From Betaproteobacteria bacterium (GTDB lineage: Bacteria > Pseudomonadota > Gammaproteobacteria > Burkholderiales > Ga0077523): 35,094 nt of DNA. The first letter of the stretch is position 1. Each line of letters opens with the position of its first letter. Shown here in pieces: positions 11,342 to 27,171 of the stretch. Made by a program: the position numbers and the translations under genes. Location: NCBI GenBank assembly GCA_025350245.1, contig JANXYG010000084.1, positions 1 to 35,094 of the forward strand, given 5' to 3'. The notes beneath the pieces were generated by a model that was given only the letters and a program-made list of their open reading frames with translations, made no database searches and was not told the DNA's origin.

Positions 11342-12301
11342 ATGGGTACCGGCGGCGAACCGATGGTGAGCGAGCCGTCGAGCAGTCAGCGGGCAGTTGC
11401 AAGGCCTGCGCGCCGCGTTTCCGCCGTTCGCGCGTACGTCGGGCTGCTGGCGATCACGCTGCTGGGTTGCCTCGCCGACCCGGCAAGCGCCCAACGGATC
11501 ACGGTCCGACTCGACACCGGGATCGGCAGCGACGACAACGTCAACCGCAGCTTCGACTACACCCATCAGGCGCTCGCCGATCAGAGCGCGTTCGCCGACC
11601 TCAATGCCAGCATGGCACTGCCGCTGTCCGAACGCATCCGGGTGATCCTCGGCGGCGTCGTGGGCGGCGAGAAGTTCTTCCAATTCGACGGGCTGTCGCG
11701 AGTGTCCGTGGGCGGCAGTGCGACGCTTCAGTTCCGCCCGTCCGGTTCGTTCGGCGCGCCGACGTGGTCGCTGTTCGCGCGCACCGCGGCCGACAGCTAC
11801 CAGTCCAACCTGCGCGACGGCTATCGCCACTCCTTCGGGCTGTCGGTGCGCAAGCCGATCACCGATGCCATCGAAGGCTCGCTGGCCGCCCAGTACAACA
11901 TCCGCGACGGCAAGTCGGCCGTGTTCGACAACAAGGACTGGGCCGCGAAACTCAACCTCGACTACAACATCTTCGGTCGCAGCACGCTGTACCTCGGTGC
12001 CGAGTATCGCAATGGCGATGCGGTGTCGTCCGGCCCCATCTCCTTCGGCATCCTGAGCCTGGCCAAGGCACTGGTGTTCGACGACGTCTTCACCGACCAC
12101 AATCTGGTGGCATACAAGCTCAAGGCCGAAACTCTCATCGCGACCGTCGGCTACAACATGCCCATCGGTCAGCGCTACGCGCTGGACCTGTCGTACCGCT
12201 ACGTGCGCACCACCCCGACCGAGCATTCGTCCGCCATCGCCGTTGCCGATCCGCGCTACACGGCCAACCTCGTCACGCTCTCGTTCCTTGTCCGATTCTA
12301 G
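11342..12301 (+). CDS. Outer-membrane beta-barrel protein beside a multihaem lipoprotein
   Basis: A 319-residue protein. A signal peptide is visible around residues 25-51 (RAYVGLLAITLLGCLADPASA). The mature part alternates hydrophobic and polar residues in strands rich in Tyr, Gly and Ser, and ends in LSFLVRF, with the terminal Phe that the BAM complex recognises. About 12-14 strands seem possible in a 268-residue mature chain. The first strand reads RLDTGIGSDDNVNRSF, a motif also seen at the start of several barrel families, including the surface lipoprotein assembly modifier (Slam) barrel; relation to Slam is only a hypothesis. The start is uncertain: ATG 11342 and ATG 11363 are both in frame and neither has a good ribosome-binding site. 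The stop is 1 bp before the next gene's ATG, so the two are coupled. Confidence 0.82.
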   Translation: MGTGGEPMVSEPSSSQRAVARPARRVSAVRAYVGLLAITLLGCLADPASAQRITVRLDTGIGSDDNVNRSFDYTHQALADQSAFADLNASMALPLSERIRVILGGVVGGEKFFQFDGLSRVSVGGSATLQFRPSGSFGAPTWSLFARTAADSYQSNLRDGYRHSFGLSVRKPITDAIEGSLAAQYNIRDGKSAVFDNKDWAAKLNLDYNIFGRSTLYLGAEYRNGDAVSSGPISFGILSLAKALVFDDVFTDHNLVAYKLKAETLIATVGYNMPIGQRYALDLSYRYVRTTPTEHSSAIAVADPRYTANLVTLSFLVRF

Positions 12302-12302
12302 A

Positions 12303-15300
12303 ATGTCGTTCACCACTCGCACCGTCACCGTCCTTCACCGGCTTCGCAACGCGATGGCCGTCGCGCTGCCGCTGGTGCTGGTCGCCTGCAGCCAGGGCAA
12401 CAGCGGCGACAGCGCCACGGCGCAGGGGGATGGCCCGATTCCCACGGGCATCAACCGCTTCCTGGTGTTTCCGAACCCCGTTGTTGCCGCCGGGGCCTTC
12501 GAAACCACCGCCGCCGCCAACGCCGCGGCCTACTACCGGGCGATCGACCCCACCTCCCAGCGCGACACGCTGGCCAAGTTCCGCGCCGTCAACGGCTTCG
12601 GCACCGGGGGTCAGGAACACATGGTGGTGTTCCGCGATGTGCGCGATCTCGGCTACGGCCGACGTCTCACCGGCCGCTTCAACGGCGGCAACGTCGCGTT
12701 CGTCGTCGAGAACTACAACGTCACTGCGCTCCCCGGCGCCTATTCGGCGCTCAACGCCGACGCCGCGGTGGCCGCCGATCCCCGGTGGCATATCGGCACC
12801 AACGCCATCGAGTACAGCGCCTCACCCTGCGACCCCGCGGCCGACCCGGCCGCCTGCGACCCCACGGTCCGCTACGCCAAGTTCTACAACTTCGACGCGG
12901 GCACCGGCGCCCGCAACCTGATCATCAATCTCGACGGCCGCGGCGACAAGGCAATGCCCGGGCCGTGCACCACCTGCCACGGCGGCCGTGGCGATCCGCT
13001 GACACCACCGGATGCCGGCGGACAGCCGCGCTTTGCTTTCGTGGGCAACTCGGCCTCAAAGAAACGCGGCGACACCACCGCGCACCTGCAACCGTTCAAC
13101 GTCGACACGTTCCAGTTCGCGACCACCGCGGGCTTCACCCGCGCCGACCAGGAAGCGAGCTTCAAGGACTTCAATCTCTGGGTGCTGTGCTCGTATCCGC
13201 TGGTCGGGGCCGTCGCCGGCGCCGAAGACAATTGCCGTCCCGCGGCCACCGTGAACGAATGGCAGGGCACCGCCGCCGAAATGGTCAAGTCGTGGTACGG
13301 CGGCCCGGGCATGCCCAACGCCACCTATGTCGACAACTTCGTGCCCACCGGCTGGCAGGCCGGCAACGTCGGTGCGGGCGCGGAAAACCTCTATCGGCAG
13401 GTGGTCGCTCCGTATTGCCGCACCTGCCACGTTCAGCGCGGCAACGGCCAGCAGAGCGACATCGATCTCACCTCGAAAGCCAAGTTCGACCCGTACGCCG
13501 AGCGCATCAAGGCTCACGTGTTCGATCGCGGCAACATGCCGCTCGCATTCATCGTCTACGACACCTTCTGGCGGTCATCGACGCCCACCACACTGGCGCG
13601 CTATCTCGACGCGCTCGGGGTGCCGGGCCTGGTAGCCACTGCCGGCGGGGTCGCGCTGCGGCCGGGCCGGCCGATCGCCGATCCGGGACCCACGCGAATG
13701 GCGCGGGCCGGCGCCAACGCAGCGCTGTCGGGCGCGAACAGCCTGTTCGCGAACACCTACACGTGGTCGATCGTCGCCTCGCCGGGTGGCGGCAATGCCA
13801 CCATCACCAATCCGAACTCGGCCACGGCCACCTTTCTCGCGACCACCCTCGGCGACTACACCGTGCGCCTGACGGTGGGCAACGCCAGCGCTTCCAACTC
13901 GAAGAACATCGTGGTCACGGTCGACAGCAGCTTCCCGGTGCCGGCCTCGATCCGGTTCGCGAGCGTCAAGAACATCCTGCGAAATGTCGCGTACCCGGGC
14001 GGCGCGTGCATCAGTTGCCACGTCGACGGCGCGGCCACCACCACGCCGATCGCCTACACCGACATCGACCGCGACGGGGTCGGCGGGGTCACCGCGATCG
14101 ACGATGCCTGGTTCTACAAGGAAGTCACCGGCCGCGTGAACCTCACCGACATCGTCGACAGTCCGCTGCTGCGCAAGCCTACCGGCAACCACCATGGCGG
14201 CGGCAGCCCTATCGTCCTGACCGGCGCGAGTCCGGCCGCGGGACTCTCCGACTTCTCGAAGGTGTACTACTGGATCCTCAACGGGATGCCAACCGGCGGT
14301 GTCGCCGCGAACGCGGGGGCCGACAGCACCAACAACGTCAGCTTCGCCGGGGCCCCGGTGTCGGCCGACATCCCGCTCACCGGCGCGCTGAGCGCCGGGG
14401 CCAACAACCTCACCTGGTCGATCGTGTCGGGCCCGGCGGGCGCGAGCATCGTCAACCCGAACACGGGCACCGGCACCGCGACGCTGCGAGTCCAGAACGT
14501 CGGGGTGTACGTCGTGCAGCTCGACGTGACCGATGGCACTGCCACCGACACCGACACGCGCCAGATCACCGTGACCGAGACGGCGGTGGTCGCCAGCTTC
14601 ACGCCGTCGGGCAACGTCGCCGTCACCTTCACCGGCGCGCCGACCGCCACCGGCCCGGTCACGCTCACCAACACCAGCACCGGCAACCCGACCACCTGCG
14701 CGTGGGTGATCGTCTCGGGCCCCGCCGGCGGGTCGTTGAGCAGCACCACGTCGTGCACCACTACCACCCTCACGGTGCCTTCCACCGCGGTCGGCGGCAC
14801 CTACCAGGTGAGCTTCACCGGCTCTAACGTCACCACCACCGACTCCGTCACCAATTCCATCGGCGTGCTGAGCGCGGGTTCCGGGGTCAATGCCAATGCC
14901 GGTGCCAACTCGGCCAACCCGCTGACGTTCTCGAATTCGCTCGGCAGCTCGAGTACCAGCGGCAACCCGGTCGCGACCGTGGCGCTCGACGGCACCGCCA
15001 GTTCCGGGCCCGGAACGCTCACCTACTCGTGGTCGGTCACGTCCGGGCCTGCTGGCTCCAGCGTCAGCACTCCCACGGCGAGCACCGCGACCCTCAACGT
15101 CAGGACCACCGGGGTATACGTGGTGCAACTGGTCGTGGACAACGGTCTGCCGCAGGGCGCCGGCAATACCGCGACACGCACCATCACGGCAACCGCCAAT
15201 TCCACCTTCCAGGCAAACGTAGTACCCGTATTCCAAGGCTGCCTGGGCGGCGGTTGCCATAGCTCGGGTACGGCACAGCCCGATTGGGAAACCGCCAGCG

Positions 15301-15503
15301 GCTTGCACGCTCGCGTCTTTGCCCGCGTTAACACCGGGTCACCCACCTTGAGCCTGCTGCTGCTCAACCCATCCAACAACTCCAGCGCGCCCAATGGCAA
15401 CGGCCATGGTGGCGGCCTACGAGCAGGCTTCGGCCTTGCCGGCGTTTTCAGCAACTACAACTTGTTCCTTACCTGGATCGTCGGCGGCGCACCCGACAAT
15501 TGA
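12303..15503 (+). CDS. Large multihaem c-type cytochrome lipoprotein with PKD/Ig-like modules
   Basis: A 1066-residue lipoprotein. The signal peptide ends in LVLVAC with the lipidated Cys29 (Ser at +2, compatible with the outer membrane). Haem motifs are CTTCH (222-226), CRTCH (372-376), CISCH (569-573) and an unusual CLGGGCH with four residues between the cysteines (980-986). Likely distal ligands are Met412 (NMPLA) after haem 2 and the HGGG histidines at 631 and 1035 for haems 3 and 4. Modules in order: haem 1 (about 60-340), haem 2 (350-440), PKD-like (447-541), haem 3 (545-665), PKD-like 2 (666-758), Ig-like (760-856), PKD-like 4 (860-965), haem 4 (966-1066). The start is ATG 12303; an in-frame ATG at 12243 lies inside the barrel gene. 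An electron-transfer role is certain only at the level of haem binding. Confidence 0.9.
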   Translation: MSFTTRTVTVLHRLRNAMAVALPLVLVACSQGNSGDSATAQGDGPIPTGINRFLVFPNPVVAAGAFETTAAANAAAYYRAIDPTSQRDTLAKFRAVNGFGTGGQEHMVVFRDVRDLGYGRRLTGRFNGGNVAFVVENYNVTALPGAYSALNADAAVAADPRWHIGTNAIEYSASPCDPAADPAACDPTVRYAKFYNFDAGTGARNLIINLDGRGDKAMPGPCTTCHGGRGDPLTPPDAGGQPRFAFVGNSASKKRGDTTAHLQPFNVDTFQFATTAGFTRADQEASFKDFNLWVLCSYPLVGAVAGAEDNCRPAATVNEWQGTAAEMVKSWYGGPGMPNATYVDNFVPTGWQAGNVGAGAENLYRQVVAPYCRTCHVQRGNGQQSDIDLTSKAKFDPYAERIKAHVFDRGNMPLAFIVYDTFWRSSTPTTLARYLDALGVPGLVATAGGVALRPGRPIADPGPTRMARAGANAALSGANSLFANTYTWSIVASPGGGNATITNPNSATATFLATTLGDYTVRLTVGNASASNSKNIVVTVDSSFPVPASIRFASVKNILRNVAYPGGACISCHVDGAATTTPIAYTDIDRDGVGGVTAIDDAWFYKEVTGRVNLTDIVDSPLLRKPTGNHHGGGSPIVLTGASPAAGLSDFSKVYYWILNGMPTGGVAANAGADSTNNVSFAGAPVSADIPLTGALSAGANNLTWSIVSGPAGASIVNPNTGTGTATLRVQNVGVYVVQLDVTDGTATDTDTRQITVTETAVVASFTPSGNVAVTFTGAPTATGPVTLTNTSTGNPTTCAWVIVSGPAGGSLSSTTSCTTTTLTVPSTAVGGTYQVSFTGSNVTTTDSVTNSIGVLSAGSGVNANAGANSANPLTFSNSLGSSSTSGNPVATVALDGTASSGPGTLTYSWSVTSGPAGSSVSTPTASTATLNVRTTGVYVVQLVVDNGLPQGAGNTATRTITATANSTFQANVVPVFQGCLGGGCHSSGTAQPDWETASGLHARVFARVNTGSPTLSLLLLNPSNNSSAPNGNGHGGGLRAGFGLAGVFSNYNLFLTWIVGGAPDN

Positions 15504-15659: not shown

Positions 15660-16106
15660 TCAATGCACCGGGACGATGCCCTCGACCGATGATTTCGGCG
15701 CCGGCAGTGCCACCTCGATGGTCCCCGCGCCGCGCTTCAGCGTGACCTTCCCGGGCTCGACGGCCACCAGCGTGCCGTGGCCATCGACATCTTCGCCCAC
15801 ACGCCATGCCATGGATGGCTGATCGCCGATCGCGAGCAGGGCCACGCCGGTGCCACTGCCACCGGTGGCGATGACGCCGACCAGCCGGAGGGGCGCGGCG
15901 TCGGCCGTCACCACCGGCCCGAACAACCCGGCAACCGGCTGGGTGTCCAGCGGCGCCTGCGCGGTCGGAGCGCTTGCCACGGGAAGCCCAACCACCGGCT
16001 CGCGCGGCGGCTGTGCCGACACCAGTTGCAGGCCCCACCAGGTCGCGGCGGCTACGGTGCCGAGCAGGAGGGCAAGATTGGCGATGGAGTGGTATCGTTG
16101 TTTCAC
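15660..16106 (-). CDS. gspC: Type II secretion system protein GspC (short form)
   Basis: An inner-membrane bitopic protein of 148 residues from the GTG at 16106. A short cytoplasmic tail is followed by one membrane segment (about 8-26, IANLALLLGTVAAATWWGL), a Pro/Ala-rich linker, and the HR domain (about 70-140: LRLVGVIAT, GDQPSMAWRVGEDV, VTLKRGAGTIEVALP). HR binds the N0 domain of the GspD secretin and links inner and outer membrane parts. There is no PDZ or coiled-coil domain, unlike the roughly 270-residue enterobacterial proteins. An in-frame ATG at 16145 would add 13 residues encoded by the upstream repeat, so the GTG is preferred. The gene is transcribed away from gspG, an arrangement also known in Burkholderia. 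Confidence 0.85.
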   Translation of the reverse strand: MKQRYHSIANLALLLGTVAAATWWGLQLVSAQPPREPVVGLPVASAPTAQAPLDTQPVAGLFGPVVTADAAPLRLVGVIATGGSGTGVALLAIGDQPSMAWRVGEDVDGHGTLVAVEPGKVTLKRGAGTIEVALPAPKSSVEGIVPVH

Positions 16107-16118
16107 ATGTTCTCGATG

Positions 16119-16189
16119 CCCCCCCAGGCTTCCTGCGGTCGCCACCCCCCGATGGGGGGCAGCCCCCTTGGGGCGGCCCGGCGGGTGCT
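16119..16189 (+). repeat. Dispersed GC-rich palindromic repeat, copy 5, in the gspC-gspG promoter gap
   Basis: It reads CCCCCCCAGGCTTCCTGCGG at the head, has a CCCCCCGATGGGGGG hairpin, and ends CCCTTGGGGCGGCCCGGCGG. It occupies half of the 156-bp divergent gap, leaving about 16190-16246 for promoter elements. No convincing -35/-10 pair is seen there. Confidence 0.85.
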
Positions 16190-16262
16190 AGACGCCGGAT
16201 GAGCGCACGCAGTGTAACGCCATGGCCGGGTGAGCCCGGCGCACCCGGGGAGAAGATGAGCG

Positions 16263-16718
16263 ATGTCCACTAGCAACAGCCCCATCCGCCGACGCCGCCG
16301 GCCCGCGCGCGTCGGCGGTTTCACGCTGATCGAGGTCATGGTGGTCGTGGTAATCCTGGGCGTGCTGGCGGCGCTGATCGTGCCACGCGTGGTGGGCCGC
16401 ACCGATGACGCGCGCGCTGTCGCCGCCCGGCAGGACATCACCGCGATCCTGCAGGCGCTCAAGCTGTATCGCGTCGACAGCAGCCGCTACCCGACGGTCA
16501 CGCAGGGTCTCGAAGCGCTGGTGACGAAACCGGCCACCGAGCCGGTGCCATCCAACTGGAAGTCGTACCTCGACCGCATGCCGAAAGATCCCTGGGGCAA
16601 GCCGTATCTCTATCTGAACCCGGGCGCGCACGGCGAGATCGACGTCTTCAGCTTCGGGGCCGATGGCCAGCCCGGCGGCAGCGGCCCCGACGCCGACATC
16701 GGTTCATGGGATCTCTAG
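16263..16718 (+). CDS. gspG: Type II secretion major pseudopilin GspG
   Basis: A 151-residue major pseudopilin that polymerises into the T2SS pseudopilus. The prepilin peptidase site is VGG|FTLIEVMVVV, with cleavage after Gly19 and the conserved Glu24 five residues into the mature chain. The family C-terminal part is complete: DITAILQALKLYRVDSSRYP, TQGLEALV, PKDPWGKPYLYLNPG and the calcium-loop region FSFGADGQPGGSGPDADIGSW. The ribosome-binding site GGGGAGAAG (16247-16255) lies 7 bp before ATG 16263. It is the first gene of the gspG-F unit. Confidence 0.97.
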   Translation: MSTSNSPIRRRRRPARVGGFTLIEVMVVVVILGVLAALIVPRVVGRTDDARAVAARQDITAILQALKLYRVDSSRYPTVTQGLEALVTKPATEPVPSNWKSYLDRMPKDPWGKPYLYLNPGAHGEIDVFSFGADGQPGGSGPDADIGSWDL

Positions 16719-16735
16719 CTGTAGTGTCCGGCGAT

Positions 16736-17203
16736 ATGGCGATGCCATCGTCCAGGATTCGCTCGCACCGCGCCGGCACTGGGCATCGCGGCTACACCCT
16801 GGTCGAGCTGCTGGTGGTGATGGTCCTGCTCGGCATCGCGGCCGGCGCGGTGACCTTGTCGATCGCACCCTCCGAAGAACGACGCGTCACCGAAGAACTG
16901 CTACGGCTCGGCGCCCTGTTCCGGCTGGCGCAGGACGAGACGCGAACCACCGGACGCCCGGTCACCTGGGAGGCCGACGTCGACGGCTACCGGTTTCGCC
17001 GCGGCGATCCGGCGCTGGCCGACGCCAGTGACGACCCGCTGCGACCGCGCCGCTGGCCGTTCGGCGTGACCCGGATCAACGCCCCCGCCATCGTGTTCGG
17101 CCGCGAACCGTTGCTGGAGCGAACCGACTTCACGATCGTCGCGCAGTCGCGGCAGTGGCGCGTCGGCATCGACGCGCTCGGTCGCGTGAGCCTGGCGCAA
17201 TGA
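16736..17203 (+). CDS. gspH: Type II secretion minor pseudopilin GspH
   Basis: A minor pseudopilin of about 155 residues. The peptidase site is HRG|YTLVELLVVM with Glu five residues in, followed by a hydrophobic helix and a beta-rich C-terminal domain (RPVTWEADVDGYRFRRGD; WRVGIDALGRVSL). The start is taken at ATG 16736, which gives a 19-residue leader like that of GspG. An ATG at 16706 overlaps the end of gspG by 13 bp and would add 10 residues; ATG 16742 is also possible. No start has a strong ribosome-binding site, so coupling to gspG is likely. GspH sits below the tip of the pseudopilus with I, J and K. Confidence 0.88.
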   Translation: MAMPSSRIRSHRAGTGHRGYTLVELLVVMVLLGIAAGAVTLSIAPSEERRVTEELLRLGALFRLAQDETRTTGRPVTWEADVDGYRFRRGDPALADASDDPLRPRRWPFGVTRINAPAIVFGREPLLERTDFTIVAQSRQWRVGIDALGRVSLAQ

Positions 17204-17634
17204 GTCCGCCGCGCCATCGGCACGATTCGCATGCCGGCGTCGTGGTTCACCACGCAGCACCCATGACGCGGTCGAGTCGGGGCTTCACCCTGATCGAAGT
17301 GGTGGTCGCACTGGCGATCGTCGCGACCGCCCTGCTTGCCTGCCTGCGTGCCATGGGCACCATGACGCAATCCGGCCGCGACCTCGACCTGCACCTGCTG
17401 GCACAACTGTCGGCGCAGAACCGCATCGCGGTGCTTCGGGCCGCAAGACAGTTTCCGCTCACCGGCGCCACCAGCGAACCCTGCTCTCAGGGCCGCGTGG
17501 CGCTGGTCTGCAGCCAGGACACCGAGACCACGCCCAATCCGGCGTTTCGTCGCGTCACCGTGCGCGTGCGTGCCACCGACGATCCCGCGATGGTGCTGGC
17601 CGAACTCACCGGCATCCTGCCGCGCGACCGATGA
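17200..17634 (+). CDS. gspI: Type II secretion minor pseudopilin GspI
   Basis: A minor pseudopilin with peptidase site SRG|FTLIEVVVAL and a Glu at +5. ATG 17200 overlaps the gspH stop in an ATGA junction like most others in this operon, giving a protein of 144 residues with a 28-residue leader. ATG 17263 gives a 7-residue leader closer to the usual GspI form, with a weak ribosome-binding site, so either start may be used. The mature part (TMTQSGRDLDLHLLAQLSAQNR, then a beta domain ending LTGILPRDR) fits GspI, which forms the tip complex with GspJ and GspK. Confidence 0.88.
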   Translation: MSPPRHRHDSHAGVVVHHAAPMTRSSRGFTLIEVVVALAIVATALLACLRAMGTMTQSGRDLDLHLLAQLSAQNRIAVLRAARQFPLTGATSEPCSQGRVALVCSQDTETTPNPAFRRVTVRVRATDDPAMVLAELTGILPRDR

Positions 17635-18212
17635 AGGCCCGGCGCGCGACCGGCTTCACGCTCGTCGAAATGCTGGTGGCGATCACCATCATGGCGGTGC
17701 TGGGCCTGATCGCCTGGCGCGGTCTCGAGCAGTTGATCGCGCAACGCACCCGCCTCGACGACATCACGGCCGATACCGAACAGGTGGTGCGCACCCTGTC
17801 GCAATTCGAGCGCGACGTCGCGCAACGCGTGCCGGACGCGCTGGTTGTCGGGCGAACGCTGCCGGGCTCGGCGCTACCCTTCGCCGTGGATGTGGACGTC
17901 GATACCAATGGCCAGCCACGCATTCGCGTCCTGCGCGCTCGCGCCGGTGGTGGCACCGTCAACGTCCTGTGGTCGGTCGAAGCAGGAACGCTCGTGCGCA
18001 CGGCATCCACCGCGAACGCCGCCGGCGCGGATCGGGTGGCGCTGCTCGAATCGGTCAGCGGTGTCGGCGTGCGACTGCTGCTCACCGACGGCTGGATCGA
18101 CGCGCGCAACCTCGTTCGCTCCGCTTCGGTTCTGCCCGAGCGCGGCGCCGCGGTCGAACTGAGCATCGACCGCGGCGCCGCCGGTCGTTTCGTCCGGGTG
18201 CTCGCGTTGTGA
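17631..18212 (+). CDS. gspJ: Type II secretion minor pseudopilin GspJ
   Basis: A 193-residue minor pseudopilin. It has a short leader with peptidase site ATG|FTLVEMLVAI, then WRGLEQLIAQRTRLDD and LSQFERDVAQRVPDA, the conserved helix of GspJ. A beta-rich C-terminal domain carries segments such as RVALLESVSGVGVRLLLTDG and ends in VELSIDRGAAGRFVRVLAL. ATG 17631 overlaps the gspI stop by 4 bp (ATGA). With GspI and GspK it forms the tip of the pseudopilus. Confidence 0.93.
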   Translation: MKARRATGFTLVEMLVAITIMAVLGLIAWRGLEQLIAQRTRLDDITADTEQVVRTLSQFERDVAQRVPDALVVGRTLPGSALPFAVDVDVDTNGQPRIRVLRARAGGGTVNVLWSVEAGTLVRTASTANAAGADRVALLESVSGVGVRLLLTDGWIDARNLVRSASVLPERGAAVELSIDRGAAGRFVRVLAL

Positions 18213-19090
18213 GGCGACGCGAGTGCGGCGCCGCGATCCTCATGGCCATGCTGGTGGTCACGCTCGGCACCTTGCTGGTGAGTGGCGCAGCGCTGCGCCA
18301 GAGCGTGCTGGTGCGGCAGGTGGAGAACGAGGCTGCCATCATGCAGGCGCGTGCGCTCATGACCGGCGCCGTCGACTGGGTCCGGCTGATCCTGCGCGAG
18401 GACGCGCGCGGATCCACCACCGATCATCTCGCCGAACCGTGGGCGGTGCCGCTGGCCCGCACCCGCATCGAAGCGGGCGGCGATCGCGCGGCGCAACTGT
18501 CGGGCCGGATCGAAGATGCCCAGTCGCGCTACAACCTGCGCAACCTGTTCGGCGCCACCGGTCTGGTGCCGGCCGAAGTCGCGGTACTTGGCCGGCTGCT
18601 CGCGCTGGCCGGCGAGCGCACCGTTTCGGCGGAGCGTCTCGCGCGCCGCATTGCCGCGGCCTATGCGATTGCGCCGGGCAGCGCATCGGCACTGCCGGCA
18701 ACACTCGACGACATCGTGCCGGCAGACGACGCCGAACGCGCCGCGCTCTCGCGCCTGCGTCCGTACGTCACCTTGCTGCCGGTGGCGACGCCGGTCAACG
18801 CCAACACCGCATCGCCCGAAGTGCTGTCGGCGCGTTTCGACAATCTCGCGCTCGCCGATGCGCAGCGGCTGGTCGAGAGCCGTGACCGCCTGTGGTTCCG
18901 CGACTTCAACGACGTCATCGGCCGCCTGCCCGGCCTGAGCCCGACCGGCGGCGTCGGACAGATCACGAGCAGCAGCAATTTCTTTCTGCTGCGCGGCCTG
19001 ATCGAATATCAGCGCGCCCGGGTCGAGGCCACCGTGCTGTTGCGGCGCGAGGGTGAACGCGTCGACGTCGTGTGGAGCCGGGAAGCATGA
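18209..19090 (+). CDS. gspK: Type II secretion minor pseudopilin GspK
   Basis: A 293-residue protein starting at GTG 18209, which overlaps the gspJ stop by 4 bp. The leader is VRRRECG with cleavage before AAILMAMLVV. It lacks the Glu at +5, as expected for GspK, which caps the tip. Downstream are the conserved ARALMTGAVDWVRLIL, AQLSGRIEDAQSRYNLRNLF, VNANTASPEVLSARF and SSSNFFLLRGLIEYQRARV segments of the T2SSK domain. The open frame extends far upstream through gspJ; that part is a shadow. A 100-bp repeat-containing gap follows before gspL. Confidence 0.93.
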   Translation: MRRRECGAAILMAMLVVTLGTLLVSGAALRQSVLVRQVENEAAIMQARALMTGAVDWVRLILREDARGSTTDHLAEPWAVPLARTRIEAGGDRAAQLSGRIEDAQSRYNLRNLFGATGLVPAEVAVLGRLLALAGERTVSAERLARRIAAAYAIAPGSASALPATLDDIVPADDAERAALSRLRPYVTLLPVATPVNANTASPEVLSARFDNLALADAQRLVESRDRLWFRDFNDVIGRLPGLSPTGGVGQITSSSNFFLLRGLIEYQRARVEATVLLRREGERVDVVWSREA

Positions 19091-19154
19091 GCCCGCCGGG
19101 CAGCCCCAAGGGCGATTGCCCGCTGGCGGGAAGGCGAGCAGCGCCCAGGGTGGG
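19091..19154 (-). repeat. Dispersed GC-rich palindromic repeat, copy 6, between gspK and gspL
   Basis: It reads GCCCGCCGGGCAGCCCCAAG at its left end on the plus strand, matching copy 1 in the same orientation. It begins immediately after the gspK stop codon. The remaining 36 bp to gspL contain the ribosome-binding site AAGGGTGG. Confidence 0.75.
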
Positions 19155-19190
19155 ACCTGTCTGCCCACCGCGCAGCGCCAAGGGTGGCCA

Positions 19191-20348
19191 ATGAATATCC
19201 GCGTCTGGCTGCCGCGGCTCGCCGGGTTCGACGCGGATGCATCGCTCCGGTGCGAATGGCTCGGCCGCCAGCGGCAGATACAGCGCCGCGCGCGCCTGAC
19301 GCTGGCGAACCTGCCCGACGCGGCCAGCGTCGAGCTGGTGTTGCACGGCCTCGACTGCGTGCTGCTCGACGTGCGTCCGCCCAGGATCGACGGCGCCAAA
19401 CTCGCCGGCGCGCTACCGGGCCTGGTGGAAGAACGCCTCGCCACCGACGTGGATCATGCCCATGTTGTCGTCGGTGAACGCGACGCGACCGGCGCCGCGA
19501 CCGCCGCGGTTGTCGACCGTGCGTTGCTCGCCCGCGCGATCGAGCGCTTCAGCCGTGCCCGACGACGGGTGGTATCGGCAACACCGCGTCCGCTGGCCCT
19601 GCCGGTCCGGCGCGACCATTGGCGGGTGCAGCTCGACGACGACCACGGCAGCGTGCGCACCGGGCCCCGATCCGGGGTCGGATTCGGCACCGACGACAGC
19701 GGTGGCGATCCGCCGCTCGAACTCCGACTGCTGCTCGCGCAGGCGCTGGTCCGCCCGAACACGATCGAGATCGAAGGCCGGTGTGATCCCGCTGCATGGA
19801 CCGCGGCGCTTGGCGTGCCGGTGGTCGCGGTCGGCGCCGATGCCGACGCGCCGCCGGTCGCGCTCGAACTGCTGCAATACGCCTTCGTGCCCGGCATCGC
19901 CGACGCCGCCGCCTGGCGCACCACCGCGTTGCTCGCCGGGCTGCTCGTTGCCGTGTCGGTCGGTGGCCTGAACCTGCACGCCTGGACTCTTCATCGGCAA
20001 GAGCAATCGTTGCGCGAGCGCATGGCTGCCGCCGTGCGCACCACCTTTCCGGAAGTGCCGGTGGTGCTCGACCCGGTGGCACAGATGCGGCGCCTGGTGG
20101 CGGATCGCCGGCCGGCTGCGGGCGCCGGCGAATTTCTCGCGCTGGCGCAATCCGTTGCGCGGATGGCGCCACCGGATTCGATCCAGACGCTCGACTATCG
20201 CGACGGCGCGCTGCGGGTGATATTCCGGAGCGACGTGGCGGCACCGGAGGCGAAGCGCACCGCATTGATCGGCGCCGCCGCGGCCCTCGGCCTCGCGTCG
20301 GCCATCGAGGGCGACGCCGTGCGCATCGCTCGCAAGCAGGCGCAATGA
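19191..20348 (+). CDS. gspL: Type II secretion inner-membrane protein GspL
   Basis: A 385-residue bitopic protein. The cytoplasmic actin-like domain (about 1-235) recruits the ATPase GspE. One membrane segment lies at about 243-264 (RTTALLAGLLVAVSVGGLNL), followed by a coiled-coil stretch (HRQEQSLRERMAAAVRTTFP) and a periplasmic ferredoxin-like domain (about 310-385) that pairs with GspM. ATG 19191 has AAGGGTGG just upstream; the open frame extends to an ATG at 19053 within gspK, which is rejected. It overlaps gspM by 4 bp. Confidence 0.92.
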   Translation: MNIRVWLPRLAGFDADASLRCEWLGRQRQIQRRARLTLANLPDAASVELVLHGLDCVLLDVRPPRIDGAKLAGALPGLVEERLATDVDHAHVVVGERDATGAATAAVVDRALLARAIERFSRARRRVVSATPRPLALPVRRDHWRVQLDDDHGSVRTGPRSGVGFGTDDSGGDPPLELRLLLAQALVRPNTIEIEGRCDPAAWTAALGVPVVAVGADADAPPVALELLQYAFVPGIADAAAWRTTALLAGLLVAVSVGGLNLHAWTLHRQEQSLRERMAAAVRTTFPEVPVVLDPVAQMRRLVADRRPAAGAGEFLALAQSVARMAPPDSIQTLDYRDGALRVIFRSDVAAPEAKRTALIGAAAALGLASAIEGDAVRIARKQAQ

Positions 20349-20821
20349 CGATCTCGCCGCTGCAATCCTGGTGGTCCGGTCTCGCGCGCCGCGAGCGGGT
20401 CATGATCCTGGCCGCCGCGACCGTGGTCGTGGCGGCCCTGCTTTATGTGGGCGCGGTCGAACCCGCGTGGCGTGAACGCACCCGCCTGCAGCGCGATCTG
20501 CCACGGTTGCAGGAGCAGGCAATGCAGGTCGATTCGCTGCGCGCCGAAGCGCTCGCCCTCGGCGGCAGCGGCGCGACGATCGCGGCCGACCGCGCCGCGG
20601 CCGAGCAATCGCTGACTCGCGCCGGTCTCGCAGGCAGCGTCCGTGGCGGTGGCAGCCAACTCGATGTCAGCGTGCGCGGTGCCGCGGCGCAGGCATGGTT
20701 TGCGTGGCTCGACAGCTATGTTCGCGAGTCGCGCCTGCGGGTCGTGCGGGTTCGCGTCAACCGCGCGGCCGGCGTCGGCATGATCGATGCCGACGCCGCA
20801 CTCGCCGCGGGCTCCAGCTGA
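20345..20821 (+). CDS. gspM: Type II secretion inner-membrane protein GspM
   Basis: A 158-residue bitopic protein. A short N-terminal tail with SWWSGLARRERV precedes the membrane segment (about 19-40, VMILAAATVVVAALLYVGAV), then EPAWRERTRLQRDLPRLQEQ forms the coiled-coil stem, and a ferredoxin-like domain ends the chain (AWFAWLDSYVRESRLRVVRV). It pairs with GspL in the inner-membrane platform. The start ATG 20345 overlaps the gspL stop (ATGA). It is separated from gspN by a 156-bp repeat. Confidence 0.9.
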   Translation: MTISPLQSWWSGLARRERVMILAAATVVVAALLYVGAVEPAWRERTRLQRDLPRLQEQAMQVDSLRAEALALGGSGATIAADRAAAEQSLTRAGLAGSVRGGGSQLDVSVRGAAAQAWFAWLDSYVRESRLRVVRVRVNRAAGVGMIDADAALAAGSS

Positions 20822-20828
20822 GATGAAA

Positions 20829-20977
20829 CCCCCACCCCCAGGCTTCGCTGCGCTGCGTCCTCCCCCAGGGGGCCAGCGCCCTTGGCGGGGTGAGGCCGGG
20901 CACAGACAGTCCCTGCGGACTGTCTGTGCGCGCCGAACGCCAGCGGACGCCGCACGCTGGCGGCCCGGCGGGCGCTG
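20829..20977 (+). repeat. Dispersed GC-rich palindromic repeat, copy 7, with a 13-bp perfect hairpin, between gspM and gspN
   Basis: The head ACCCCCAGGCTTCGCTGCG and tail GGCGGCCCGGCGGGCGCTG match the other copies, but the middle is expanded. The insertion contains a perfect hairpin (GCACAGACAGTCC at 20900-20912 pairing with 20917-20929 around a CTGC loop) and a second inverted repeat, CGCCAGCG (20938-20945) with CGCTGGCG (20955-20962). No T-run follows either stem, so they are not typical terminators. Confidence 0.85.
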
Positions 20978-21724
20978 ATGGCTGCCCGCCTGACCATCGC
21001 GCTGCTCACCGCGGCATCGACGATTGTCGTGACCATGGTCGTCGCCGCGCCCGCCGCATGGTTGTCGGGTTGGCTCGCGCCACCCGGTCCGGTACGGCTG
21101 GTGGAACCGGCCGGCACTCTCTGGCGGGGCTCCGCCCTGATTGCCATCAGCGACGGCAATCAGGCGCTGCTGTTACCGGGCCGGGTGGCATGGCGCGTCG
21201 ATCCCGTCGCCCTGTTCTCGGGTCGACTGGGGGCCACGCTGACGCATCCGCTCGCCGCTGGCGAGGTCCGCATTTCGGGTAATCGACACGGCGTCGACCT
21301 CGCAGCCGGGACGGCGCGCCTGCCGGCCGCCTGGCTGGTATTGTTCGGGGCGCCTTTCAATACGCTGAGGCCGGGCGGCGAGTTGCTGCTCACCTGGAGC
21401 GACCTCAGCGTCGGCAACGCTACGTTCTCGGGGCGGATCGAAGCACAATGGCGGGATGCGCGCTCGGCCTTGTCGCCGGTGGCGCCTTTGGGCGATTTCC
21501 GGCTGGTGGCCAGCGGCGCCGGCGCCACCGGCGACCTGGTGCTTTCGACGCTATCCGGGCCGCTGCTGCTGGAAGGCCGCGGCCGCATGGCCAACCGGAT
21601 TGTGCGCTTCAATGGCACGGCCAACGCCGAACCCGCCATGCGTCCGCGCCTTAACGCCCTGATCGGCGTTCTCGGCGCGCGGGCGGGCGACCACGTGACA
21701 CTCGACTGGGCATTGCAAATTTGA
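20978..21724 (+). CDS. gspN: Type II secretion protein GspN
   Basis: A 248-residue protein with an N-terminal membrane segment or signal anchor (about 5-32, LTIALLTAASTIVVTMVVAA) followed by a periplasmic beta-rich domain. Typical GspN segments are VEPAGTLWRGSALI, LLLPGRVAWRVDP and a C-terminal VTLDWAL. GspN occurs only in some T2SS; its precise role is not settled. ATG 20978 lies right at the end of repeat copy 7, whose GGCGGG may act as ribosome-binding site. The stop overlaps the gspD start. Confidence 0.88.
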   Translation: MAARLTIALLTAASTIVVTMVVAAPAAWLSGWLAPPGPVRLVEPAGTLWRGSALIAISDGNQALLLPGRVAWRVDPVALFSGRLGATLTHPLAAGEVRISGNRHGVDLAAGTARLPAAWLVLFGAPFNTLRPGGELLLTWSDLSVGNATFSGRIEAQWRDARSALSPVAPLGDFRLVASGAGATGDLVLSTLSGPLLLEGRGRMANRIVRFNGTANAEPAMRPRLNALIGVLGARAGDHVTLDWALQI

Positions 21725-23781
21725 AGCAGCGCGTACGCATCGGACGTTGGTCATGGCGGTGGTTGCTGCCGGCAGTGGTTTGCCTGGCAACCCTGCCAGG
21801 CGCCGTCGGCGCGGCCGACGAGCGCGTGACGCTGCGGTTCGTCAACGCCGATATCGACGCCGTGGTGCGCGCGGTCGGTCATTACACCGGGCGCACCTTC
21901 GTGGTCGATCCGCGCGTGAAGGGCACCGTCAGCCTGGTCTCCGAAAAATCGATGACGCGCGAGCAGGCGCTGGCGGCGCTCACCAGCGCGCTGCGCATGC
22001 AGGGGTATGCCATCGTCGAGGCCGGCGGCATCTCGCGGGTCGTGCCCGAAACCGAAGCCAAGTTCCAGGGCAGCGTGGTCGGCACGCAGGGGGTGCCGGG
22101 CAGTGCGCGCGGCGATCAGGTGCTGACCCAGGTGTTCCGGCTGCAATACGAGTCGGCCGTCAACATCCTCGTGGCGGTCCGGCCGCTGGTACCGTCGACC
22201 AATCCGGTGACCGCCGCGCCCGGCGGCAACGCCATCGTGGTCACCGACTACGCGGAGAACCTGCGCCGCATCGAGAAGGTGATCGCGGCACTCGACATCC
22301 CGCCGGTCTCCAACACCGAAGTGATCGTGCTGCGCAACGCCATCGCCACCGATGTCGCGGCGATGGTCGCGCGGCTCACCGATCAGGGCGGCACCGCGGC
22401 CGATCCGGCGCAGAAGATTTCGGTGCTGGCCGATCCGGCCACCAACAGCATCGTGCTGTTGTCGGCCAACCCCGGGCGCACCCATGTCGTCAAGGCACTG
22501 GTGGCGAGCCTCGACCAGCCTTCGGCCCGCGGCACCGGCGTGCATGTGGTGCCCCTGCGCAACGCCGAAGCCGTGGCGCTCGCCAAGACGCTCACCGGCG
22601 TGCGCATCACCGATCCGCTGGCGGGCGGTCGCTTCGGCGGCACCGGCAGCGCCCTGTTGCCGGGCCAGCAGGCGGCCGGCACCGACTCGCAGGGAGGCAC
22701 CACGGTCATCGCCGACGCCGCCTCCAACTCGCTGGTGATCACCGCGGCGGATCCCGCCTATCGCTCGCTGCGTGCGGTGATCGACAAGCTCGACGTGCGC
22801 CGCGCGCAGGTGTTCATCGAATGCCTGATCGTCGAAGTCACCAGTGACCAGGCGGCCGAATTCGGCATCCAGTGGTTCGGCGGCCTCAACAACATCGGCA
22901 GCACCAATCCATCGGTGGTCGGCGGCACCAACTTCGGCACCAGCGGCCAGAACATCATCGGCGGCGCGCGCAATCTGGGCAGTCTCGGCCCGGGCCTCAA
23001 CATCGGCATCGTGAAGGGCCAGGTCACCATACCGGGGCTCGGGGCGATCACCAACCTCGCTTTCCTCGCCCGGGCTCTCGAAACCAGGACCAAGGCCAAC
23101 ATCCTGTCGACGCCGAACATCCTCACCCTCGACAACGAGGAGGCGAAGATCGTGGTCGGCCAGAACGTGCCGTTCATCACCGGCCAGTTCCTGAACCAGG
23201 CGTCGGCCGGCAACAACGTGAACCCGTTCCAGACCATCGAGCGCCGCGATGTCGGCCTCACGCTCAAGGTCAAGCCGCAGGTCAGCGAAGGCGGCACGGT
23301 CCGGCTCACCATCTACCAGGAGGTGTCGAGCATCCAGGACACCACCTCGCCCGCGGGCATCATCACCAACAAGCGTTCGCTCGAAACCAACGTCATCGTC
23401 GACGACGGCAACATCATCGTGCTCGGCGGCCTGGTCCGCGACCAGCTCGACAACACCTTGCAGAAGGTGCCGGGCCTGGGCAACATCCCGTGGCTCGGCC
23501 AGTTGTTCCGCTACGAGACCCGGCGCACCCAGAAGACCAACCTGATGCTGTTCCTGCGGCCCTACGTGATCCGCGACGAATCGGTGTCGCGGGTGCTCAC
23601 GGTCGATCGCTACGACGCCATGCGGCGCGAGCAGATCGCCACCACGCCGCTGCCGCCCAACCTCGTGCTGCCGAAGATGGATGGCGCGGTGATGCCCGAA
23701 TTCGATCTGCGCCGGAAATTGCCGGCGCCCGTGGCGCCGCCTGCTGCCGACCCGGCGCCGCCGGCAACGCCACCGAAATGA
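21721..23781 (+). CDS. gspD: Type II secretion outer-membrane secretin GspD
   Basis: A 686-residue secretin that forms the multimeric outer-membrane channel. It has a signal peptide 1-31 (RWSWRWLLPAVVCLATLPG), N0 at about 35-110, N1 at about 135-193, N2 at about 199-265, N3 at about 273-360, and the secretin core at about 365-620 with ANILSTPNILTLDNEEAKI, VGLTLKVKPQ and VPGLGNIPWLG (583-593). The tail from about 640 is rich in Pro and Ala. The start is TTG 21721, overlapping the gspN stop, with no clear ribosome-binding site. No later start keeps the signal peptide, so TTG with coupling is the best choice. There is no separate pilotin gene here. Confidence 0.95.
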   Translation: MKQRVRIGRWSWRWLLPAVVCLATLPGAVGAADERVTLRFVNADIDAVVRAVGHYTGRTFVVDPRVKGTVSLVSEKSMTREQALAALTSALRMQGYAIVEAGGISRVVPETEAKFQGSVVGTQGVPGSARGDQVLTQVFRLQYESAVNILVAVRPLVPSTNPVTAAPGGNAIVVTDYAENLRRIEKVIAALDIPPVSNTEVIVLRNAIATDVAAMVARLTDQGGTAADPAQKISVLADPATNSIVLLSANPGRTHVVKALVASLDQPSARGTGVHVVPLRNAEAVALAKTLTGVRITDPLAGGRFGGTGSALLPGQQAAGTDSQGGTTVIADAASNSLVITAADPAYRSLRAVIDKLDVRRAQVFIECLIVEVTSDQAAEFGIQWFGGLNNIGSTNPSVVGGTNFGTSGQNIIGGARNLGSLGPGLNIGIVKGQVTIPGLGAITNLAFLARALETRTKANILSTPNILTLDNEEAKIVVGQNVPFITGQFLNQASAGNNVNPFQTIERRDVGLTLKVKPQVSEGGTVRLTIYQEVSSIQDTTSPAGIITNKRSLETNVIVDDGNIIVLGGLVRDQLDNTLQKVPGLGNIPWLGQLFRYETRRTQKTNLMLFLRPYVIRDESVSRVLTVDRYDAMRREQIATTPLPPNLVLPKMDGAVMPEFDLRRKLPAPVAPPAADPAPPATPPK

Positions 23782-25202
23782 ACCGGCTGCTGCCGTATGC
23801 GTTCGCGCGCTCGCAGTCGGTGCTGGCGGTCGGCGAACGCGACGGCCGGCTGCAACTGTGGGTGACAGAGCAGACGCCGGCCGCGGCGATCGCCGAAGTG
23901 CGGCGTTCGCTCGCTCGCGAGGTGGCGCCGCTGCTGGTGCCGCACGATCAGTTCGAGGCCGGGCTGCGCTCGGCCTATGTCGACGACGGCACCCAGGCCG
24001 CGGCGGTGGTGGTCGAAATGGAAGGCGAGATCGATCTCGCGCGCCTGCTTCAAGACATTCCCCAGGTCGAAGACCTGCTCGATGTCCGTGACGACGCGCC
24101 GGTCATCCGCATGCTCAACGCGCTGCTGTCGCAGGCGCTGCGCGAAGGCGCCTCCGACATCCACATCGAGCCGTTCGAGCGCCACTCGGTGGTGCGCTAC
24201 CGCGTCGATGGCACCTTGCGCGATATCGTGCGGCCCGGCCGCGGCCTGCACGCCGCGCTGGTCTCGCGCATCAAGATCATGTCCGACCTCGACATCGCCG
24301 AGAAACGGCTGCCGCAGGACGGCCGCATCCTGCTGCGCCTGGGCGGCAGGCCGATCGACGTGCGCGTGTCGACGTTGCCCGCCGGCCACGGCGAACGTGT
24401 GGTGCTGCGCCTGCTCGACCAGGAGCGCGGACGACTCACGCCCGACGCCCTGGGCATGGCACCCGACACGCGCAGCCGTCTCGACACGCTGGTGCATCAA
24501 AACCACGGCATCGTGCTGGTCACCGGCCCCACCGGCAGCGGCAAGACCACCACCTTGTACGCGATGCTGTCACGCATCGACGCCGCCACCACCAACGTGC
24601 TCACGGTCGAGGACCCGATCGAATACGACCTGCCCGGCATCGGCCAGACCCAGGTCAACGCCCGCATCGGCATGAGCTTCGCGCGGGCGCTGCGCGCCAT
24701 CCTGCGCCAGGACCCCGACGTGATCCTCATCGGCGAGATCCGCGACGTCGAAACCGCGCAGATCGCGGTGCAGGCCTCGCTCACCGGGCACCTGGTACTC
24801 GCGACCCTGCACACCAACGACGCGGTGGCGTCGGTGACGCGGCTAGTCGACATGGGCGTCGAACCGTTCCTGCTGTCGTCGTCGCTCATCGGCGTGCTGG
24901 CCCAGCGCCTGGTGCGCAAGCTGTGCCATCGATGTCGCCACCAGGACGAGCACGGCGATTGGCAACCGCTCGGCTGCCCGGCCTGCGGCGACACCGGCTA
25001 CCGCGGCCGGACCGGCATCTACGAACTGCTCGCCGTCGACGACGACATGCGCGCGGCCATCCATCGGCGTGATGGCGAGCACGCGCTGCGCGCGCTGGCG
25101 CTAGCCCGGGGGCTGCGCCCGCTACGCGATGACGGCGCCCGGCTGATCGCGGACGGGATCACCTCGGCGGCGGAACTCGCGCGCGTCACGCGCGAGCAAT
25201 AA
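23778..25202 (+). CDS. gspE: Type II secretion ATPase GspE
   Basis: A 474-residue cytoplasmic hexameric ATPase that drives pseudopilus assembly. An N-terminal N1E-like domain at about 1-95 contacts GspL. The CTE core follows: Walker A GPTGSGKT at 250-257, Asp box LTVEDPIEY at 275-283, Walker B DVILIGEIRD at 314-323 with Glu320, and His box GHLVLATLHTNDA at 337-349. The tetracysteine zinc module has Cys383, Cys386, Cys400 and Cys403, a little shorter than usual. ATG 23778 overlaps the gspD stop (ATGA). No defects are seen. Confidence 0.97.
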   Translation: MNRLLPYAFARSQSVLAVGERDGRLQLWVTEQTPAAAIAEVRRSLAREVAPLLVPHDQFEAGLRSAYVDDGTQAAAVVVEMEGEIDLARLLQDIPQVEDLLDVRDDAPVIRMLNALLSQALREGASDIHIEPFERHSVVRYRVDGTLRDIVRPGRGLHAALVSRIKIMSDLDIAEKRLPQDGRILLRLGGRPIDVRVSTLPAGHGERVVLRLLDQERGRLTPDALGMAPDTRSRLDTLVHQNHGIVLVTGPTGSGKTTTLYAMLSRIDAATTNVLTVEDPIEYDLPGIGQTQVNARIGMSFARALRAILRQDPDVILIGEIRDVETAQIAVQASLTGHLVLATLHTNDAVASVTRLVDMGVEPFLLSSSLIGVLAQRLVRKLCHRCRHQDEHGDWQPLGCPACGDTGYRGRTGIYELLAVDDDMRAAIHRRDGEHALRALALARGLRPLRDDGARLIADGITSAAELARVTREQ

Positions 25203-25227
25203 TCGCGCGGCGACGGCGCACGCTGCC

Positions 25228-26439
25228 ATGACCATGTTCCGCTTCGAAGCGGCCCAGGACGACGGGCGTCTGGAGCAAGGCGAGATCGAAGCCGACACCG
25301 CCCGCGCCGCGCGCACCGTGTTGCGCTCGCGCGGGCTGGTGCCGATTTCGGTGGCGGCCACCACCACGACCGGCGACGACCCCGCTCGCTCCAACACGCG
25401 CGCGGCATTGCGCGAGTCCGAGCTGGCGCTCGCCACGCGCCAGTTCGCGAGCCTGCTCGGCGCCGGCCTGCCGCTCGAAGCCGCGCTCACGACGTTGACC
25501 GAACAAACCGCGCACGAACCGCGGCACGCCGTGTTCCGCGAGGTTCGCGCCGACGTGATGGCCGGGCATCGGCTCGCCGATGCGCTCGCGCGGCATCCGC
25601 GCAGCTTTCCGCCGATCTACTGCGGCACCGTGGCGGCAGGCGAGCAGGCCGGCAACTTCGCCACCGTGCTCGAGCGCCTTGCCGGCTACCTCGAAGAGCG
25701 GCAGGCGTTGCGCGCGCGGCTGATCGCGGCCGCGACCTATCCGGCCATCGTCACCGTCGTGGCGCTGGGCATCGTGCTGTTCCTGATGACCTACGTGGTA
25801 CCGCAGGTGGTGCAGGTGTTCGAGCACACGCGGCAGGTGCTGCCCTGGCCCACGCGGGCGCTGCTGGCGCTGTCATCACTGCTGCGCGTTGCAGGCCTGC
25901 CACTGCTGCTGGCTCTGGCGGGCGGCATCTGGATCGCGCGGCGCGCGCTGCGCCGCCCGGGTCCGAAGGCCGCATGGGATCGCCTGCTGCTGCGACTGCC
26001 GGTGGTGGGTCCGCTGGTGCGCGGCATCGACACCGCGCGCTTTGCCTCTACGTTGTCGATGTTGACCGAGGCCGGCGTGCCACTGCTGCGGGCGCTCGCC
26101 GCCGCCGAGGCCACGGTGTCGAACACCGTGTTGCGTCAGGCGGTGTCGACGGCGGTGGAACGGGTGCGCGAAGGTTCGAGCCTGGCCCGCGCGCTGGCGC
26201 AGAGCAAGGTGTTTCCGCCGGTGCTGATCCGGTTGACCGATGTCGGCGAGGCCACCGGCGAGTTGCCAAAGATGCTGGCCCATGCCGCCGACAACGAAGC
26301 ACGGGCGGTGGAACGAAGAGCCACCGCCGCCGCTGCCCTGCTGGAACCCATGCTGATTCTGGTGATGGGGGCGGTGGTGCTGGGCATCGTGCTCGCCGTG
26401 CTCATGCCCATCATCGAGATCAACCAACTGGTCCGATAA
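25228..26439 (+). CDS. gspF: Type II secretion inner-membrane platform protein GspF
   Basis: A 403-residue polytopic protein with two T2SSF domains (about 70-190 and 270-395), each with a GEATGELP-type motif (AAGEQAGNFATVLERLA and DVGEATGELPKMLAHAA). Three membrane segments are visible at about 170-195, 210-235 and 370-395. GspF is the core of the inner-membrane platform rotated or moved by GspE. ATG 25228 comes 25 bp after the gspE stop. It ends the T2SS operon: its stop is directly adjacent to the stop of the convergent FecR gene. No gspO prepilin peptidase gene is in the window. Confidence 0.96.
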   Translation: MTMFRFEAAQDDGRLEQGEIEADTARAARTVLRSRGLVPISVAATTTTGDDPARSNTRAALRESELALATRQFASLLGAGLPLEAALTTLTEQTAHEPRHAVFREVRADVMAGHRLADALARHPRSFPPIYCGTVAAGEQAGNFATVLERLAGYLEERQALRARLIAAATYPAIVTVVALGIVLFLMTYVVPQVVQVFEHTRQVLPWPTRALLALSSLLRVAGLPLLLALAGGIWIARRALRRPGPKAAWDRLLLRLPVVGPLVRGIDTARFASTLSMLTEAGVPLLRALAAAEATVSNTVLRQAVSTAVERVREGSSLARALAQSKVFPPVLIRLTDVGEATGELPKMLAHAADNEARAVERRATAAAALLEPMLILVMGAVVLGIVLAVLMPIIEINQLVR

Positions 26440-27171
26440 TCAGTAATCGCGCCGCGGTACCGAATAGTCGTCACCAGGAAAAACAAATGGCGGCGTGCGA
26501 CCGACCAGGGTCTCGATCAGCATGAGTTCCTGGTCGTTGTGATTGATGAACGGGGCACGGCGGATGTTCTTGCCCGCGCTGGCGCCAGCCACGATGTAGA
26601 GCGGCTTGTCGTGATGCTTGGCCGACACCGTTTCGGTGCTCTGCTTGTCGGCAGTCGCCGCGATGTCGGTGACGCCGTAACAGGTGCAGAAGTAGGTCTG
26701 CTCGGGATCGGATTCAAGATAGACGCCGGTGCCACGGATACCGATGGTGGCCGTGAAGGTTTGCAGCCGCAGCGGCTGCGCCGACTTGCCGAACACCGCC
26801 AGCACGCGCCCGGTCAGCATTCGCAGGCCCGACACCACCAGTGCAGTGGCGCTGCTCTTCTGGATCTCAAGCTTGCTGGACGCCCGCAGCACGTAGGCAC
26901 TGCCGGCAACGGCGAACACCATCTCGCTGGCGGGGCCGGTCTCGACCGTATCGCCCGGAGCGATCGAACTGCTCAAGGTGGCTTTCGTGCCGTTGATCGT
27001 GCCGGTGCCGGAGAGGCGGTAGATCGACTGCCCCGCGGGCAGCTTCGACGGCGTGCTGCCGAAGACATCGGCGCGGGCGTTCATGCACGGAATGCCGGTC
27101 AGCGCCCCGAGCGACAGTGCATGCACGAGAATGCGTCGGCGCGGATCGTCGGCTTCGCCAGATTTGCTCAT
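26440..27171 (-). CDS. FecR-domain exported protein
   Basis: A 243-residue protein. The N-terminus has a possible twin-arginine export signal (PRRRILVHALSLGALTG, then cleavage near NARA). A FecR domain follows at about 40-155: a beta-rich core with SIAPGDTVETGPASEMVFAV, YVLRASSKLEIQ, GRVLAVFGK and the hallmark TATIGIRGTGVYLE. A CTC motif (162-164) and a short acidic region FINHNDQELML follow. In siderophore systems FecR relays a signal to an ECF sigma factor, but no sigma factor or TonB receptor is nearby and no inner-membrane anchor is visible, so classic FecR signalling is unlikely. It converges on gspF with no gap between stops. It might be a T2SS-exported or periplasmic protein; this is a guess. 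Confidence 0.8.
   Translation of the reverse strand: MSKSGEADDPRRRILVHALSLGALTGIPCMNARADVFGSTPSKLPAGQSIYRLSGTGTINGTKATLSSSIAPGDTVETGPASEMVFAVAGSAYVLRASSKLEIQKSSATALVVSGLRMLTGRVLAVFGKSAQPLRLQTFTATIGIRGTGVYLESDPEQTYFCTCYGVTDIAATADKQSTETVSAKHHDKPLYIVAGASAGKNIRRAPFINHNDQELMLIETLVGRTPPFVFPGDDYSVPRRDY

Follow-up and report, generated by a model that had tools for sequence, protein, structure and literature searches.

In a stretch of 35,094 nucleotides from a Betaproteobacteria bacterium of the order Burkholderiales (assembly GCA_025350245.1, contig JANXYG010000084.1, forward strand; the whole of this stretch is called the window below), we analysed a gene for a multihaem lipoprotein of 1066 residues. 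In the reading that we favour, with a probability of about 0.45, its product is a surface redox lipoprotein of an unnamed family of c-type cytochromes, with a core that is probably catalytic, and with a small outer-membrane beta-barrel and a FecR-like protein as companions. As judged from the alignments, the dihaem core is the conserved base of the family and the pieces made of PKD and haem modules are add-ons. The features of the gene are the following:

12303..15503, +: multihaem lipoprotein gene, 1066 aa, an open reading frame (ORF) with relatives found
12303..12389, +: signal peptide and lipobox up to Cys29; the start codon is uncertain, with an in-frame alternative at Met18
12444..13640, +: dihaem core, residues 48-446, of an unnamed family, delimited by core-profile search and conservation
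12966..12980, +: haem site 1, CTTCH, with both Cys and the His in 18/18 core sequences
13416..13430, +: haem site 2, CRTCH, with both Cys in 17/18 and the His in 18/18 core sequences (CRVFH in locus L010)
13536..13538, +: Met412, likely sixth ligand of haem 2, in 18/18 core sequences
13665..13931, +: PKD module 1 (Pfam 3.6e-8)
13935..14294, +: haem C module 1, with site 3, CISCH, at 14007-14021, and His630-His631
14304..14582, +: PKD module 2 (Pfam 2.4e-6)
14586..14882, +: PKD module 3, divergent, with Cys799 and Cys818; no Pfam match alone, hhalign probability 95.8-97.8% to the other three
14892..15188, +: PKD module 4 (Pfam 2.8e-9)
15186..15500, +: haem C module 2, with site 4, CLGGGCH, at 15240-15260; hhalign probability 98.9% (2.8e-17) to haem C module 1

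Modules and haem sites of the lipoprotein

The ORF has the codon bias of a real gene, with a third-position GC of 0.87-0.88, and its lipobox ends in LVLVAC at Cys29, which is invariant in 13 sequences, so that the multihaem lipoprotein proposed here in an earlier note, made by a model from the DNA alone, is borne out. Under the +2 Asp rule for lipoprotein sorting, the sequence VAC-S at Cys29, a lipobox Cys not followed by Asp, is that expected of an outer-membrane lipoprotein, and together with the outer-membrane neighbour the lipobox suggests that the protein is exposed at the surface. No paralogue was found in the genome itself, and no relative among viral contigs or plasmids; a viral or plasmid origin was rejected on the latter ground.

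Four haem-type motifs are present, CTTCH (residues 222-226), CRTCH (372-376), CISCH (569-573) and CLGGGCH (980-986), compared with a mean of 0.0063 and a maximum of 2 in 20000 shuffles of the same composition; open frames of at least 100 residues in the rest of the window hold 2 haem motifs in a total of 41279 residues, one each in two frames. The three CXXCH and one CX4CH motifs reported before are therefore all there, and they are conserved in relatives. Site 1 is CXXCH in all 13 family members that entered the full comparison and site 2 in 12 of them, whereas at site 3 eleven members have CXXCH and two have CX4CH, and site 4, found only in five long forms, is CXXCH in three and CX4CH in two. 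Because the two spacings interchange at the same place, the less common CX4CH motif of the window can be argued to be a working haem site. The persistence of all four sites across diverged members indicates that they are real, and covalent attachment of haem to them is probable. The genome encodes the haem attachment protein CcmF (E 5.8e-136); ResB, another protein of cytochrome maturation, was not found in the search of the same genome.

Around haem 4, the window protein carries GHGGG but lacks a Met. In the other four long forms (L002, L003, L004 and L039) a Met directly follows a Cys pair that is missing from the window, and L002 additionally has a His soon after; the sixth ligand of haem 4 may thus have changed between the window and the other long forms. 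In haem C module 1, residues 586-601 (14058-14105) form a D-x-D-R-D...D-D stretch resembling what we take to be a calcium-loop motif. The locus L010 (1-3437) is a decaying island: of its barrel, only the final 55 residues are left, following a transposase-like ORF, and haem site 2 is lost.

The module order is dihaem core (haems 1 and 2), PKD, haem C, PKD, PKD, PKD, haem C. When each beta-sandwich segment was cut out and searched singly, the K319L-like PKD model PF22352 scored above its cut-off in three of the four, and the third segment (residues 764-861) gave no Pfam match; profile-profile comparison joins all four, with probabilities of 95.8-99.1%, in agreement with the four modules of this kind that had been noticed. 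By the same method the two haem C modules, which carry sites 3 and 4, align as homologues over 98 columns, whereas the modules of haems 1 and 2, compared with each other or with the other haem modules, reach at most 48.5%, over 15-21 columns round the motif. Haems 1 and 2 have no PKD module between them, a single one separates haem 2 from haem 3, and three separate haem 3 from haem 4; the regular alternation of haem and PKD modules described in the earlier note is thus rejected. The accompanying statement that the haems are too far apart for a packed core fits haems 3 and 4, which are separated by whole domains; haems 1 and 2 share one core.

The dihaem core and the spread of the family

The idea of a string of redox domains does not describe how the family is organised, since its conserved part is the dihaem core, which is shared with shorter proteins, L046 (442 aa) and L024 (342 aa), in which no PKD module was matched. 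In L047 and L048 the core is preceded by PKD- or Ig-like stretches with scores under the cut-off, and in L078 (3238-7016), from another class of the phylum, a protein of 869 residues has the order core, PKD (1.7e-4, below the cut-off), haem module, Big_9. No specific Pfam or NCBIfam family covers the core, and only PKD and generic cytochrome c models match the protein, as had been anticipated when no named family was recognised. The CBB3 model matches 10 of the 13 members (best E 3.3e-7) and stays below its cut-off in the window protein; haem 2, with its CXXCH motif and the C-terminal Met412, would fit the pattern of a class I c-type cytochrome.

In the core alignment (18 sequences), Tyr77, Asp115, Arg120, Glu170, Glu284, Tyr332 and Trp351 are invariant. 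Besides the His of the haem sites and Met412, no His or Met is the commonest residue of its column in 15 or more of the sequences, which leaves haem 1 without a conserved sixth ligand of either kind. A haem 1 of this sort, in a core with invariant Tyr, Arg, Asp and Glu residues, is more suggestive of an enzyme than of an electron wire. By analogy with dihaem enzymes, the pattern suggests a relay haem together with an unusual, perhaps open, one. The core resembles the di-haem peroxidase/MauG family (PF03150) in having two haems of unequal conservation, one of them with a Met. At E 0.1, however, the 13 lipoprotein members match 15 families, none of which is PF03150, and membership of that family was rejected. 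In L078 the core gene adjoins a PF03150 gene, the two being convergent.

The protein is present in 5 of 150 related genomes at 1e-10 (here and in the phylum samples, the source genome is counted). A six-row profile matched 18 of 399 genomes of the order at 1e-10, 12 of them over nearly the whole 620-position model and six partly, and 7 of 398 genomes in a sample of the phylum, where a core-only profile matched four at 1e-8. Paucimonas lemoignei DSM 7445 (Burkholderiales) is the one named relative, found in a contig scan with a single-sequence query, whose reach was probably shorter than that of an alignment. The search for homologues with the same order of modules, which the earlier note had proposed, thus yielded relatives, with the long form in only five of the 13 members; the others lack the terminal PKD-haem piece and are shorter, three-haem proteins. 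The long forms make up one clade (local support 0.877) within the family of shorter proteins, which is most simply explained by a single addition of the PKD-PKD-PKD-haem C tail.

The neighbouring barrel and FecR-like genes

Three features of the surrounding locus are relevant here:

11342..12301, +: small outer-membrane beta-barrel gene, ending 1 nt before the lipoprotein gene; without a Pfam match at E 0.1
26440..27171, -: FecR-like protein beginning with DPRRR, the third gene of the island, assigned by sequence relatives and a FecR profile
15660..26439: type II secretion genes (C on -; G, H, I, J, K, L, N, D, E and F on +), context only, between the lipoprotein and FecR-like genes

The barrel has about 290 residues and ends in Phe, the window ORF having 319 aa in all. 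It, or a remnant of it, lies directly upstream of the lipoprotein gene in 13/13 loci, and the spacing is 11 nt in nine of these (10 in L002, 8 in L044, 7 in L042 and 1 in the window); so nearly constant a distance points to more than chance neighbourhood and suggests coupled translation. Among 12 barrel members, single ones weakly match Porin_4, DUF2490 or OMP_b-brl. SlipAM (PF04575), which we take to be the surface lipoprotein assembly modulator, is not among the five families that these members match at E 0.1, and membership of it was rejected.

In six loci (L006, L040-L043 and L045) the barrel is the C-terminal end of a giant protein. All five giants scanned with Pfam (all six but L043) have Ig repeats and an autotransporter domain, and since the second barrel follows this domain, the autotransporter domain is not C-terminal in them. 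The N-terminus is readable in five of the six (L040 is cut by the contig end), each with one CXXCH motif there. The giants lie at 2481-6857 in L006, 8483-13294 in L041, 8111-13009 in L042 and 1554-6413 in L043, and in L045 together with L079. Long lipoproteins pair with a free barrel in all five cases, and short ones pair with the giant form in six of eight, with a free barrel in L044 and with a broken one in L010. The barrel relatives are thus like autotransporters (PF03797) with Ig-like repeats in that they are fused behind such a protein, whereas the window barrel matches no such domain and stands alone. When a giant autotransporter was sought elsewhere in the source genome, with a query lacking its first 298 residues, the result was limited to the barrel and two weak matches to Ig repeats, overlapping each other, on contig 1.

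The window FecR-like protein has ten relatives that are 55-61% identical to it. Among the ORFs listed, the FecR-like gene is the closest convergent neighbour at 11 of the 13 loci. Type II secretion genes intervene between it and the lipoprotein gene in the window and in G007 (in the latter by reading of its ORFs). Of 399 genomes searched with a FecR profile, 75 matched at 1e-30, and the 13 best of them comprise all 12 lipoprotein carriers and G112. In five genomes (G006, G080, G162, G241 and G112) the barrel and FecR-like genes adjoin with no lipoprotein gene, which means that the pair does not need the lipoprotein; the barrel set searched was hand-picked (27/27 matched) and not a random sample. 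The two genes look like an older pair, with the lipoprotein perhaps one cargo among several, and the space between them may be a site where cargo is exchanged.

In the same space, two genomes of one genus (G008, L062 6662-12027; G010, L058 4169-9338) carry TIR, STAND and radical SAM genes, identified by running Pfam on the G008 genes. A possible second link with type II secretion is seen at L059 (6532-6978), where a GspC-like gene (Pfam T2SSC 2.1e-8) directly precedes the FecR-like gene. The window also holds two HipA-like kinase genes (Pfam HipA_C) head to head, at 2263-3801 (-) and 4227-6071 (+).

Possible function and its alternatives

In the reading that we favour, haem 2 of the core, with its His and Met ligands, would relay electrons, and haem 1 would be the probable substrate site of a redox enzyme. 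The PKD modules would hold one or two monohaem haem C modules away from the core, and these would act as outlets or inlets for electrons, depending on the direction of flow, towards an extracellular partner. The small barrel would be the membrane partner, perhaps binding the lipoprotein physically, for its display or anchoring at the surface, and the FecR-like protein would be a periplasmic companion. PKD modules are several nanometres long and electron tunnelling falls off beyond about 1.4 nm, so that the extended protein could not itself pass electrons from site 4 to site 3; a flexing contact or a separate partner would be needed. A broader scheme, which we hold to be doubtful, is a dihaem enzyme served by a tip haem on a beta-sandwich rod, the rod being borne either by the lipoprotein (long forms with a free barrel, 5/5) or by a double-barrelled autotransporter (short forms, 6/8), with electrons crossing between core and tip in place of a packed haem chain.

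Several observations weigh against a surface enzyme of this kind. The core matches no enzyme family, and among solved structures it finds only weak cytochrome c6 motif matches (E at least 0.18) and chance matches; over all the searches of solved structures, the matches were PKD-type, cytochrome c6 motif or chance ones only. Tyr332, Tyr77, Lys193 and Lys216, each kept in 16-18 of the 18 core sequences, are possible ligands of haem 1, which leaves an open haem unproven. Haem 2 is lost in L010, though its barrel is also broken, and the five genomes with an adjoining barrel and FecR-like pair manage without the lipoprotein. The structure prediction suggested in the earlier note gave models too poor for use or for fold searches, each from a two-sequence alignment (mean pLDDT, the predicted local distance difference test score, 33.3 for the lipoprotein; pLDDT 29.6 for the barrel).

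Another explanation, possible but in our view unlikely, is a surface rod for extracellular electron transfer, a string of haems that trades electrons with minerals or other cells. Four haem sites, a lipobox and an outer-membrane neighbour agree with it, as does the haem site at the N-terminal chain end of the giant-barrel relatives, but there are only three or four sites per protein, separated by whole domains. This conduit reading is further weakened because no MtrB/PioB-type porin (PF11854) was found in the source genome, in a search where 14 control genomes also fell below the cut-off and which thus had no positive control, and because the window holds no other multihaem gene. Outside the lipoprotein ORF, a single frame of at least 30 residues has several motifs, namely two in 91 residues within gspF; this count was confined to the window and would miss inner-membrane electron partners encoded in other parts of the genome. 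PF11854 is also absent from the families matched by the 12 barrel members, and membership of the Mtr or porin-cytochrome conduits was rejected for lack of the porin in the genome and of a further multihaem gene in the window. A somewhat less probable account makes the lipoprotein a passenger with a function of its own in a variable slot between the barrel and FecR-like genes. The genomes where these genes adjoin directly, the TIR, STAND and radical SAM genes found in the same place in G008 and G010, and the type II secretion genes there in the window and G007 speak for such a slot, whereas the barrel or its remnant directly upstream in 13/13 loci, at 11 nt in nine, across six families and Paucimonas, speaks against it.

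We consider it improbable that the protein is a redox or haem sensor or adhesin that attaches to a surface through its PKD and Ig modules and signals through the FecR-like protein. The PKD modules, the Ig repeats of relatives and the FecR-like neighbour would suit that role, but no sigma factor or transducer is seen among those window ORFs, a part of the total, that were scanned with Pfam, and the DPRRR start and hydrophobic stretch of the FecR-like protein read as an export signal. Least credible by far is a structural protein with no haem at most of its sites: the less common CX4CH motif and the loss of site 2 in L010 would allow it, whereas the motifs are kept across diverged members, CXXCH and CX4CH exchange in place, and CcmF is present.

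As described in two reports, porin-cytochrome clusters combine porins of 24-32 transmembrane regions with cytochromes of mostly at least 10 and up to 35 haems, counted as CXXCH, CX3CH and CX4CH (PMC5566968, PMC10734462). The window resembles MtrCAB, MtoAB, PCC3 and PCC4 in that a barrel gene adjoins the gene of a c-type multihaem protein, but differs from these complexes in the three to four separated haem sites of the family and in its barrel of about 290 residues; 319 aa looks too short for that number of strands, though the barrel model is poor. Cyc2, a fused monohaem cytochrome-porin according to PMC10734462, is like the giant-barrel relatives in joining one N-terminal haem site and an outer-membrane barrel in one chain, whereas in the giants Ig repeats and an autotransporter domain intervene, and the window has no such fusion. 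The multihaem cytochromes of anaerobic methanotrophic archaea (ANME), which carry S-layer and other domains according to PMC9012536, similarly join haem regions to non-haem surface domains, but are archaeal and have more haems and S-layer domains; both likenesses are likenesses of architecture. Among the matches listed in a search of open-licence literature, no paper on extracellular cytochromes combining multihaem and PKD or Ig-like domains was found.

Well-studied outer-membrane multihaem conduits rely on closely packed haems, whereas here the haem sites lie on separate domains. The protein family occurs in several taxonomic families of a single order and has a relative from a different class, and neither its dihaem core domain nor the barrel-lipoprotein gene pair bears a name in the annotation libraries searched. 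If the core is not an enzyme, the question becomes how electrons move between haems so far apart; if it is one, the family would provide a well-defined protein on which surface redox chemistry can be tested.

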